Of a stretch of DNA of 64,000 bases, positions 21,022 through 63,938 are shown piece by piece. Positions within the stretch are counted from its first letter, which is position 1; every line of letters starts with the position of its first letter. The DNA lies in the NCBI RefSeq assembly GCF_010119205.1, contig NZ_WRXM01000001.1, positions 1,612,001 through 1,676,000 on the forward strand, read 5' to 3'. Source of the stretch: Haloarcula limicola (lineage in GTDB: Archaea > Halobacteriota > Halobacteria > Halobacteriales > Haloarculaceae). Under the pieces are notes generated by a model. That model was not told the origin of the DNA. It ran no database searches and saw nothing but the letters and a program-made list of their open reading frames with translations. A program made the translations under genes and the position numbers.

Positions 21022-21035
21022 TATCATATGTGATA
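21022..21035 (-). promoter_or_regulatory. TATC-N6-GATA element, only copy found outside the motility locus
   Basis: Read toward the zinc-ribbon gene this is TATCACATATGATA, flanked by G and C so the palindrome extends to 16 bp with one mismatched pair. It lies about 45 bp upstream of the start codon of the membrane-anchored zinc-ribbon gene, just ahead of a TATA-like stretch near 21000. It matches the sites at 55-63 kb, including the A after TATC. Confidence 0.5.
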
Positions 21036-55222: not shown

Positions 55223-55236
55223 TATCAAATCTGATA
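55223..55236 (-). promoter_or_regulatory. TATC-N6-GATA element upstream of arlC/E
   Basis: Read toward the gene the site is TATCAGATTTGATA. It ends 10 bp upstream of the TATA-like TATATT (55207-55212), which in turn is about 30 bp from the start codon. It is one of five exact copies in the motility locus. Confidence 0.65.
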
Positions 55237-57165: not shown

Positions 57166-57525
57166 CTACGACGGGACGACGTCCTGAATAGCCTCGATTA
57201 CACTCGGCTTCTGGAACGGTTTGGTGATGTAGCCGTCGGCGCCCGCCTTGACGGCCTCCTTCATCTTCTCTTCCTGGCCGACGCTCGTACACATGATGAC
57301 GTTGGCTTCGGGGTTCGAGGTCTTTATCTCGTCAGTCGCTTCGATGCCGTCCCGAATGGGCATCACGATGTCCATCATCACGAGATCGGGCGACTGCTCC
57401 TTGTACACCTCGACGGCTTCCACCCCGTTCTCGACTTCACCCACTATCGTGTGGTCCTCCTCAAGAATCTCCCGGAGGAGGTTCCGCATGAACTCCGAAT
57501 CGTCGGCAATCAGTACGTCTGGCAT
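57166..57525 (-). CDS. cheY: CheY response regulator
   Basis: The 119-residue single-domain receiver has the acidic pocket Asp8-Asp9, phospho-acceptor Asp52 (MMDIVMP), Ser/Thr80-81 and Lys102 (ITKPF). It binds the archaellum switch through adaptor proteins when phosphorylated by CheA. It heads the cheY-cheC-cheD operon; a TATA-like CTTTATTTAG lies near 57556-57565, preceded by a regulatory palindrome. Confidence 0.97.
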   Translation of the reverse strand: MPDVLIADDSEFMRNLLREILEEDHTIVGEVENGVEAVEVYKEQSPDLVMMDIVMPIRDGIEATDEIKTSNPEANVIMCTSVGQEEKMKEAVKAGADGYITKPFQKPSVIEAIQDVVPS

Positions 57526-57577: not shown

Positions 57578-57591
57578 TATCGCCTGTGATA
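57578..57591 (-). promoter_or_regulatory. TATC-N6-GATA element upstream of cheY
   Basis: Read toward the gene the site is TATCACAGGCGATA, followed by ATTTACG. It ends about 14 bp upstream of the TATA stretch at 57556-57563. The core agrees with the HTH-gene site at 62493 in 13 of 14 positions. Confidence 0.65.
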
Positions 57592-60758: not shown

Positions 60759-61394
60759 TTAGAGCGTGACCGCGGAGTTACCCGAAAGCGTCTCGGGGAC
60801 CACGAGTCGAACGGTGGTGGTACCACCGGATTGGGTGTTCAGGCGGATGGTCGCAGTTGCACCCTCACCTAGACCTGCGGCGTCAGTAGAGTCAGCACTT
60901 TCACCGTGGATGTCTCGGACGTTGAACGTGAGCGTCGCGCGGTCGGATGGATCGTTGAGCACCTGACTGCTTGAGATAGAGGTGTCGTCGTCCTGAACCT
61001 CGGACACGCCGTAGTTGTCGTTATCGGAAGTGGAAGCAGCACTTTCGTCGACGGTCAGGTCGTAGGATCCGGACGAGTCGACCCACTGGGCGATCGTACT
61101 GCCGATGTCAATGTTCGCGGCACCGGGCGCTTTCTTCACTGTGACTTCAACGGTGTCAACCTCGCTGTTCTCACTGTCAATGGACGTACCGACTGTATTT
61201 ACCACTTCGAGCCGATTGGTAACTTGATCGCTGCTCTGTTGTCCGGTCTCTTCCGCACTCGACTGCAAGAATCCTGCCGTGTTGATGAGGACGCCCGCGG
61301 CGATAGCGGCGACCAGCACCATCGCGATGAACACGATGAGGGTGCCGATCCCGACCTGCCCGCGGTCGTCGTCGTTTCGTAGTTTGTCGAACAT
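60759..61394 (-). CDS. Archaellin (flagellin)
   Basis: The 211-residue protein is the filament subunit. It has a prepilin-type leader [15 protein letters not shown] cut after Gly15 by the prepilin peptidase, a hydrophobic N-terminal helix ([19 protein letters not shown]) and a Ser/Thr-rich surface domain without proline-rich repeats. Only one archaellin gene is present here. Its 5' leader of about 25 nt contains AGGTC/GACCT (61405-61419). The TATA-like TAATAATA is at 61443-61450, preceded by a regulatory palindrome. Confidence 0.95.
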
Positions 61395-61463: not shown

Positions 61464-61477
61464 TATCTCTAATGATA
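61464..61477 (-). promoter_or_regulatory. TATC-N6-GATA element upstream of the archaellin gene
   Basis: Read toward the gene the site is TATCATTAGAGATA, followed by TTTCGG. It ends 13 bp upstream of the TATA-like stretch 61443-61450. Confidence 0.65.
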
Positions 61478-61758: not shown

Positions 61759-62034
61759 TCAGTCGTAGGTGACGAGACTGTACATCACGAACAGGTAGCC
61801 GAAGGTCGTCAGGCCGCTGTTGACGAGCAAGAGCGACTTCACGCCCTCGAAGTCGTTGACGAACGCGCTGATCATGGTCGCTGCCGCCCCGGCGACGGCC
61901 AGCGAGAATCCGAGCGAGAGATGGAGCATCGCTTTTCGGGACGTCTGGACGTACGCCCGCATCGCCATCCCGACCATGGTGAGCCCGGCGACGACGAATA
62001 CCAGCGTCGAGATGGCATAGAGGAGTTCTATCAT
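61759..62034 (-). CDS. Small three-helix membrane protein (DUF7521 type), paralogue of 11369-11668
   Basis: The 91-residue protein has three hydrophobic segments (about residues 4-26, 34-57 and 65-87) with YVQTSRKAML between the first two, matching the protein at 11369-11668. It follows the HTH gene (85-bp gap, own TATA and TATC-N6-GATA site). A partnership in sensing at the membrane is proposed, not shown. Confidence 0.8.
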   Translation of the reverse strand: MIELLYAISTLVFVVAGLTMVGMAMRAYVQTSRKAMLHLSLGFSLAVAGAAATMISAFVNDFEGVKSLLLVNSGLTTFGYLFVMYSLVTYD

Positions 62035-62085: not shown

Positions 62086-62099
62086 TATCCGTCCTGATA
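62086..62099 (-). promoter_or_regulatory. TATC-N6-GATA element upstream of the small membrane-protein gene
   Basis: Read toward the gene the site is TATCAGGACGGATA, followed by TTTTCGC. It ends 13 bp upstream of the TATA-like TAATAAAT at 62065-62072, the same spacing as in the archaellin promoter. Confidence 0.65.
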
Positions 62100-62118: not shown

Positions 62119-62457
62119 TCAGCGGTCAGCAGAGAGCGTTCGCCAGGCCTCGTCGAGTTTGTTGGTGACCTCGGAGCGTTCCTCTACGTGAACGGTCAGT
62201 TCGTCATCGAAGTCGACGCGGACCTCGTCGACGTTCCGGCGGTACACCTTGATGCGTCGCCGGTCGTCCGAGAGGATGTTGTCGTGGAGTTCGAGCAGGT
62301 CGTGTTCGGTCAGCTCGTCGATGCGTCGGTAGCAGGTAGCGATGGGGATCCCGAGTTGGTCGCTCAGCTCTTGGGCTGACGCCGGTTCGTCGGTCGCGTC
62401 GAGGATCTCGGCGCTGTATTTGTTCCCCAACGTCTGGAGAAGATCCGCTGAAGCCAT
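62119..62457 (-). CDS. Winged-helix regulator in the motility locus, paralogue of 10992-11342
   Basis: The 112-residue protein is a winged helix (SAEILDATDEPASAQELSDQ, recognition helix IPIATCYRRIDELTEH) with an acidic beta-hairpin C terminus. It heads the HTH/membrane module inside the arl-che locus. A TATC-N6-GATA site lies directly beside its AT-rich promoter, so autoregulation is possible. It is a good candidate for the protein that binds the shared motif. The start at 62457 fits a leaderless transcript. Confidence 0.83.
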   Translation of the reverse strand: MASADLLQTLGNKYSAEILDATDEPASAQELSDQLGIPIATCYRRIDELTEHDLLELHDNILSDDRRRIKVYRRNVDEVRVDFDDELTVHVEERSEVTNKLDEAWRTLSADR

Positions 62458-62492
62458 CGTTATCAAAACATATATTGTGACTACAATAAAAC

Positions 62493-62506
62493 TATCGCCG
62501 GTGATA
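62493..62506 (-). promoter_or_regulatory. TATC-N6-GATA element upstream of the HTH regulator gene
   Basis: Read toward the gene the site is TATCACCGGCGATA, flanked by C and G, so the palindrome is 16 bp with one mismatched pair. It almost abuts the TATA-like GTTTTATTG (62484-62491), a closer spacing than in the other promoters, which would suit repression or dual control. Confidence 0.62.
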
Positions 62507-62623: not shown

Positions 62624-63349
62624 TTACAGCGGCGAGTCCTCGTCGCTCATCATCGAGAAGGCGCTGGCGTTCTGGTGGACCTTCAGCCCGCCCCAATCGA
62701 TCTCCATCGGATAGATGTCCGTCTCGATGTTCTGCTTTCGCATCTTCGCCACCCAGACGTAGCGGTTGACGCCGGAGTCGGTCGGCGTCTGGATGAGGTA
62801 GATGTTCCCGTCGGTGAGGTAGTTCGCGAGGCCGATCTCGGTGTCCGGAAACACCGCGCCCTGTTCGTTGGTCAGCAGCGAGGTCAGTCCGTTCTCACGG
62901 AGGATATCGGTGAACTTGAGCAGGTACGTGCGCTTCTCGCGCTCGTTCTCGAAGAACAGCTCGAACATCGCGAGCGAGTCGAGCACCAGTCGGTCGTACT
63001 GGTCGTCCTCCAAGTCGTCTAAGAGGATGTCCAGCGAGGAGGAGAAGTCGTTCTCTCGGAGGAGCACCTGCTTGTCGTAGACCTTGATGTCGCCGTTTTC
63101 GACGAATTCGGCCCACTTATCGAAGCCGAGTGACTCGGCGGCTTCTCGGAGGTCGGATTCGTTCTCCTCGAAGGTGAGGTAGATGCCCTTCTCGTCGAAC
63201 ATCTCGACGCCGTTGTAGATGTACTGGAGGCAGAGGATCGACTTTCCGGCACCGGGGTTACCGCTGATGAGCGTCGTCGAGTCTTTCACGATACCGCCGT
63301 TGAGGATGTCGTCGAGGCCGTCGATGCCCGTCTTCGTTAGCTCGATCAT
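62624..63349 (-). CDS. KaiC-like ATPase of the chemotaxis locus
   Basis: The 241-residue RecA-like ATPase has Walker A ISGNPGAGKSILCLQY near residue 28 and the RLVLDSLAMFELFF Walker B near 124. It resembles the KaiC/RAD55 proteins found in haloarchaeal taxis loci, possibly a link between energy or redox state and motility. It is transcribed after cheW, with an 83-bp gap. The start at 63349 (MIELTKTGIDGLD) gives the usual N terminus. No TATC-N6-GATA site is seen upstream. Confidence 0.85.
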   Translation of the reverse strand: MIELTKTGIDGLDDILNGGIVKDSTTLISGNPGAGKSILCLQYIYNGVEMFDEKGIYLTFEENESDLREAAESLGFDKWAEFVENGDIKVYDKQVLLRENDFSSSLDILLDDLEDDQYDRLVLDSLAMFELFFENEREKRTYLLKFTDILRENGLTSLLTNEQGAVFPDTEIGLANYLTDGNIYLIQTPTDSGVNRYVWVAKMRKQNIETDIYPMEIDWGGLKVHQNASAFSMMSDEDSPL

Positions 63350-63432: not shown

Positions 63433-63867
63433 TCAGGCTTCACTATGGACGACTGCGGGGTCGACCCAGATGACGAACGCTTCGTCGCGCTTGACGACGC
63501 CGTGGATAGACCCGGCGTCGTTGCCCGGCGACCGGTCTATCTGGTCGGGCGTTATCTGGACGACCTGATCGACTTCGTCGACCAACCACCCGACGGCGCT
63601 CTGGTTCTTCACGATATCCGGGTCGAAGACGATGACGCGCTTGCCCGCGCCGGCGTCGTCGATCCCGAAGACGACCTTGGGGTCGACGATGGACGTCGTC
63701 CGCCCTCGGAGGTCCATGACCCCCTCGACGTAGCGGGGCGCGTTGGGGACCTGCGTCAGGTCGCCGACGTCGACGATCTCGGTGACGTAGTCGATACTGA
63801 CGCAGTACGTTTCCCCGCCGAGTGCGAATTCGAGCACTTGGCCGGTTGTGGCTGACTGAGCTGACAT
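63433..63867 (-). CDS. cheW: CheW coupling protein
   Basis: The 144-residue protein has the CheW pattern VLEFALGGETYCVSIDYVTEIV and VEGVMDLRGRTTSIVDPKV. It couples chemoreceptors to CheA. The start at 63867 is the natural N terminus (MSAQSATTGQVLEFAL). cheA, cheB and cheR are not in the window and probably lie beyond its right edge. A degenerate TATC-N6-GATA site lies upstream. Confidence 0.93.
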   Translation of the reverse strand: MSAQSATTGQVLEFALGGETYCVSIDYVTEIVDVGDLTQVPNAPRYVEGVMDLRGRTTSIVDPKVVFGIDDAGAGKRVIVFDPDIVKNQSAVGWLVDEVDQVVQITPDQIDRSPGNDAGSIHGVVKRDEAFVIWVDPAVVHSEA

Positions 63868-63924: not shown

Positions 63925-63938
63925 TATCAACTTTGATT
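63925..63938 (-). promoter_or_regulatory. Degenerate TATC-N6-GATA element upstream of cheW
   Basis: Read toward the gene the site is AATCAAAGTTGATA, one mismatch from the element. It ends 14 bp upstream of the TATA-like TTTTATG at 63905-63911, the same spacing as in the exact sites. Confidence 0.45.

Follow-up and report, generated by a model that had tools for sequence, protein, structure and literature searches.

The closest described regulator is CsmR (HVO_1209), a motility regulator of Haloferax volcanii described on 12 June 2026 in PLoS Genet (PMC13286277). This winged-helix protein of 13 kDa, whose gene precedes arlA1/arlA2 and has cirA (hvo_1212, KaiC-like) nearby, binds its motif and is needed for motility (PMC13286277). 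The motif derived from ChIP-seq, TATCA(N4)TGATA adjoining a TATA box, was present in 50 of 65 peaks, and in its published form of about 34 bp it comprises the box together with the adjacent TATA (PMC13286277).

Another regulator for comparison is EarA, the euryarchaeal archaellum activator of Methanococcus and Pyrococcus, likewise a small protein with a winged helix and a link to the archaellum operon; its site, which lies about 9 bp before the BRE, is thought to serve in the recruitment of TFB (PMC10665913, PMC5512572). The EarA site, A(C/G)(C/G)TACA(T/C), is non-palindromic, whereas the CsmR box is palindromic, TATCN6GATA, and the latter is the element conserved at the locus described here. 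CsmR and EarA are reported to share no similarity in sequence or structure (PMC13286277). EarA, which was the first candidate family, was rejected due to the different recognition site and this lack of similarity.

The csmR orthologue and its locus

The window, i.e. the whole 64,000-nt stretch of Haloarcula limicola DNA that was analysed, contains an ORF on the minus strand (62119..62457; ATG at 62457, end of the stop codon at 62119) for a 112-aa winged-helix protein, with a Pfam match to HTH_20 (E 5e-13) exceeding the gathering cut-off. The order on the minus strand is cheW (63433..63867; Pfam CheW, 4.6e-28), a KaiC-like gene (62624..63349; Pfam KaiC, 2e-47), this ORF, a gene for a DUF7521 small membrane protein (61759..62034; Pfam PF24365) and the archaellin gene arlA (60759..61394; Pfam Arch_flagellin, 2.6e-34). 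The initial annotation had placed a 112-residue winged-helix gene between archaellin and cheW, which the ORF and Pfam data bear out, with two genes intervening. Further along the locus lie cheY (57166..57525, minus strand; an ORF of conserved synteny), the cheC-like and cheD genes, and the arl genes from arlC/D/E to arlJ; the che and arl names outside the Pfam-searched genes, that of cheY among them, were given by sequence and gene order. A DUF7521 gene stands between csmR and the archaellin gene in most Haloarculaceae csmR loci and also adjoins csmR in several other families.

The protein and that of csmR from a Haloferax-type locus are reciprocal best hits with about 61% identity (E 1e-36), the comparison sequence being that of genus g31, labelled Haloferax-like for its locus order, and not of H. 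volcanii itself. The next-best gene for the g31 protein in the window genome reached only 1e-10, leaving an E-value gap of 26 orders. In two loci of g31 (L106/L107) the order is csmR > arlA > arlA < cirA arlC.., matching hvo_1209-1212 (PMC13286277), and the KaiC gene that occupies the cirA position in them is 66% identical to the KaiC-like gene of the window, which is thus the cirA counterpart. Judged by sequence and synteny, the window gene is orthologous to H. volcanii csmR. It lies in the archaellum locus and shares with H. volcanii csmR the archaellins, cirA and che genes as neighbours, as well as the TATCA-N4-TGATA box; unlike in Haloferax, it follows cirA directly and precedes the DUF7521 gene. 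A strong best match to CsmR was found in most of the 292 genomes of the class that were scanned, save a few genera.

The AlphaFold2 model, built from 33 sequences, had a mean pLDDT of 89.7. Foldseek matched it mostly to Phr of Pyrococcus furiosus, ArsR homologues of P. horikoshii, SmtB, CzrA and BigR, with Phr (2p4w) as the best PDB match at a TM score of 0.70-0.71 on the query. Phr, an ArsR-type heat-shock regulator, differs from CsmR in being longer, in its unrelated target genes and in sharing only about 22% identity with it. Phr is an autoregulated repressor that acts near the transcription start. No Lrp/AsnC protein was recognisable by description among the best 50 structural matches. The AsnC-type HTH and the C-terminal RAM domain that mark the Lrp/AsnC family were not found in the orthologue: the HTH_AsnC-type Pfam model scored 18.7 bits, under its cut-off of 27, and no RAM (AsnC_trans_reg) domain was matched. 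PDB sequences searched with a profile of the family yielded nothing at E 0.01, and NCBIfam holds no model for the protein. CsmR was classed as Lrp/AsnC in PMC13286277, where 2P4W was found as well. Since the modelled orthologue appears to combine an ArsR-like fold with the corresponding helix-turn-helix domain, we would call the fold of CsmR ArsR/Phr-like rather than Lrp/AsnC; this assignment is new and would point to an ancestry in the ArsR/Phr group.

The TATC-N6-GATA element and its probable reader

The window contains six exact copies of the element TATCN6GATA where 0.12 would be expected, and none of 100 shuffles gave six. Five of the six copies precede the arlC/D/E gene, cheY, the archaellin gene, the DUF7521 gene and csmR. 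In the 3.9-Mb genome, searched by pattern and by single stretches, 30 sites were found versus 10 for the reversed control. The boxes of Haloarcula often end in CGATA or AGATA in the 3' half, and boxes of the TATCA(N4)TGATA type next to a TATA are found at the archaellum and chemotaxis promoters. The remaining copy in the window, TATCACATATGATA at 21022-21035, is placed where no recognised motility gene was seen and has no TTTA at +14.

The dependence of the element on CsmR was assessed in 59 genomes of the Haloarculaceae family, CsmR being scored as present when the best E was below 1e-28. The excess of the element over the reversed control averaged 19.3 in the 45 genomes with CsmR and 5.5 in the 14 genomes without it (p 2e-6), and the composite of element, 14 bp and TTTA was present at 3.07 versus 0.21 copies per genome (Mann-Whitney p 5e-8), both p-values ignoring shared ancestry and overstating independence because the compared species are related. 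The coarse exception is the test over genus means, in which the difference in composites gave p 0.035; the reversed control was near 0. The element-excess and composite counts were hand-copied from the search tables, and outside the window's family they refer to a chosen subset of genomes.

In archaellated genera that lack CsmR one composite was found in seven genomes (g3) and none in five (g21), and archaellins were detected in most genomes of both. Motility alone does not account for the co-occurrence of the composite with CsmR. Genome G290, which is without CsmR inside a CsmR-bearing genus, contained no composites versus 3.5 in its congeners. A clear CsmR homologue accompanied by essentially no composites was seen in g15, a Halobacterium-like genus, and in g32, where the box or the regulon seems to be a different one. 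The way in which the composite tracks CsmR across Haloarculaceae, and its near absence from archaellated genera devoid of CsmR, are new findings.

A general AT-rich feature of promoters in a GC-rich genome, or mere chance, could in principle produce such sites, as promoters of a GC-rich genome are AT-rich. This explanation is contradicted by the six copies against 0.12 expected and the excess over the reversed control, as well as by the exact spacing and the dependence on the presence of CsmR, and its probability is negligible.

It could also be supposed that the element is read in this organism by some other winged-helix paralogue instead of the protein encoded in the motility locus, since about ten weaker relatives of CsmR are encoded in the genome and in Natrialbaceae(-like) genomes the CsmR homologue is located away from the arl and other motility genes. 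The ChIP in H. volcanii was, however, done on CsmR itself, genomes devoid of CsmR retain the weaker paralogues but have almost no composites, and the synteny of csmR with the motility locus speaks against such a substitution, which makes it very improbable. CsmR very probably reads the TATC-N6-GATA element in this archaeon. The proposal of the initial annotation that the product of the regulator gene reads the element is strongly supported by the reciprocal best hit, the H. volcanii ChIP-seq data (PMC13286277) and the co-occurrence; this central guess is right, yet it had already been published (PMC13286277).

Box position at predicted target promoters and at csmR

At the motility promoters the box, in each case on the minus strand, keeps a fixed distance to the TATA. 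The box of the DUF7521 gene (62086..62099) ends 14 bp before TTTATTAC (62071-62064), that of the archaellin gene (61464..61477) 14 bp before ATTATTA and that of cheY (57578..57591) 14 bp before TTTATTT. In related loci the distance from box end to TATA is exactly 14 bp for 39 of 41 DUF7521 genes, 33 of 35 cheY genes and all 11 archaellin rows, to which some loci contributed two rows. The box of the DUF7521 gene, present in 41 Haloarculaceae loci, is also the one found most consistently.

The box of the arlC/D/E gene (55223..55236, minus strand) is followed in relatives by a poor TATA (TTSAAGR) at +14, and the automatic TATA call for this gene varied across related loci. The spacing of 10-14 bp initially given for the promoters other than that of the regulator is thus correct in its value of 14 bp, the value of 10 bp at arlC/D/E having arisen from the choice of an upstream AT run. 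The variant box of cheW, AATCAAAGTTGATA (63925..63938, minus strand), situated 14 bp before TTTATGCC, had been missed by the exact pattern used at first because of one mismatch. In 40 of 46 related loci cheW is preceded at +14 by a box of the AATCA type that has no more than 2 mismatches. On these grounds the DUF7521 gene and cheW are predicted as additional CsmR targets.

The same 14-bp distance is shared with the Haloferax-like genomes, recurring at several promoters of g31 and of other families. The spacing at the DUF7521, archaellin, cheY and variant cheW promoters across Haloarculaceae, together with its occurrence at Haloferax-like promoters, is new, and so constant a site immediately before the BRE would speak for contact between the bound protein and TFB/TBP.

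The promoter of csmR is arranged differently. Its TATA box, TTTATTG (62484..62490, minus strand), lies 27-33 bp upstream of the ATG, and an exact element, TATCACCGGCGATA (box 1; 62493..62506, minus strand), is placed 2 bp upstream of it and therefore covers the BRE position. The element had been described at the outset as almost touching the TATA of the regulator's own promoter, and this holds. An imperfect box 2, TATATGTTTTGATA (62461..62474, minus strand), strong in its right half only, is found between the TATA and the start codon. Box 1 is 2 bp from the TATA in 16 of the 17 loci that possess it. The 2-bp composite at csmR was present in 16/16 genomes of g1 and 6/6 of g4 (22/22 in two genera), was missing from the remaining 23 genomes with CsmR in the window's family, and outside g1 and g4 occurred only sporadically, near the level of the reversed control. 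An upstream self-box as a general feature of csmR was rejected, the 2-bp position being limited to these two genera.

The half-site between the TATA and the start codon is the more conserved feature of the csmR promoter: GATAA was found at -14..-4 from the start codon in 52 of 55 csmR loci, compared with at most 6 of 46 before any other gene of these loci. In each of the 17 loci that have both box 1 and box 2 their starts lie 32 bp from each other, including those in which the distance to the ATG shifts by 1, and the position of box 2 is occupied by an exact TATCN6GATA in two loci (L114 and L119) of another family. In Haloferax-like csmR promoters, unlike that of Haloarcula with its box 2 bp from the TATA and its half-site before the start, no exact self-box was found. 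This distinct layout of the csmR promoter, with the 2-bp box 1 and the GATAA half-site, is likewise new. In Haloferax csmR transcript levels are stable across conditions, and autoregulation is not mentioned (PMC13286277).

Box 1 might instead be activating or neutral, its conservation in two genera reflecting recent ancestry and the GATAA serving the initiation of transcription or translation. The restriction of the 2-bp box to g1 and g4 is in line with this, as is the distance itself, because the shift from 2 to 14 bp amounts to roughly one helical turn, so that the protein would sit on a similar face of DNA at both. Against this explanation speak the constancy of both boxes and of the 32-bp gap amid flanks that vary between species, the rarity of GATAA upstream of the remaining genes in these loci and the location of box 1 over the BRE position, and it is considered unlikely. 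Autorepression of csmR would be the likeliest reading of the layout. As for the self-repression proposed initially, the geometry is consistent with it, but the upstream self-box by which it had been argued is confined to two genera.

Sign of regulation and extent of the regulon

The model put forward takes the orthology, box conservation, spacing and co-occurrence established here as its basis. A CsmR dimer would bind the palindromic TATCA-N4-TGATA box. At the archaellin, cheY, arlC/D/E, DUF7521 and cheW promoters, where exactly 14 bp separate the end of the box from the TATA and the box immediately precedes the BRE, the bound protein could touch TFB/TBP, which would most simply be an activating position. 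At its own promoter CsmR bound to box 1 over the BRE and to the weaker box 2 between the TATA and the start codon, 32 bp or about three helical turns apart and hence on the same face, would keep out TFB and polymerase, and the gene would thus be under negative autoregulation. Taken as a whole, the model is considered likely.

The H. volcanii data bear on the sign in both directions. Deletion of csmR results in non-motile cells without archaella and overexpression in hypermotility (PMC13286277). The arl and che transcripts nevertheless rise in the deletion strain, the genes with motif-bearing, correctly oriented peaks rising most, and the authors offered both a network effect and direct derepression as explanations, leaving the sign open (PMC13286277). 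The rise of arl and che transcripts is equally compatible with direct repression of the targets and with a network effect. The activation of motility genes claimed in the initial annotation is plausible from the fixed box position, and only plausible because the deletion raises these transcripts and the paper leaves the sign open (PMC13286277).

CsmR could thus be a direct repressor everywhere, its own promoter included, the loss of motility being due to mis-dosage or a post-transcriptional block. The strongest rise at motif-bearing genes, one passage of PMC13286277 that concludes direct derepression, and the nearest solved folds, which are those of ArsR-type repressors and Phr, all agree with this. 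It is less easily reconciled with hypermotility on overexpression and the disappearance of archaella on deletion (PMC13286277), with a spacing of 14 bp kept rigidly by boxes upstream of the BRE, which is more typical of TFB/TBP contact than of occlusion, and with the different placement of the box at csmR itself; direct repression throughout is somewhat unlikely. A position-dependent dual regulator, which activates when the box ends 14 bp before the TATA and shuts off its own gene when the BRE lies under one box and the start region under a second, is proposed tentatively. If this were true, the same protein and the same box would give a self-limiting motility switch, and it would be explained why the loss of CsmR disturbs the regulon rather than simply switching it off. 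The single target spacing fixed across families, the other layout at csmR and the archaellated lineages devoid of both CsmR and the boxes offer a concrete handle on the activator-or-repressor question left open in PMC13286277.

Most of the other genomic TATCN6GATA sites that were inspected have no TATA at +14. Two genes for HisKA_7TM/PAS sensors (7TM histidine kinases) are preceded by the element with CATAAG or CTTATC after 14 bp (L135, G000:C1:1454776; L140, G000:C2:341032) and are weak candidates only for membership of the regulon. In Natrialbaceae-like genomes (loci L148-L163, family label f3), some of them composite-bearing with no archaellin detected, the arrangement of element, 14 bp and TTTA is kept before cheY and a chemotaxis-transducer-like gene, both named from their sequence, which extends the box to these two genes.
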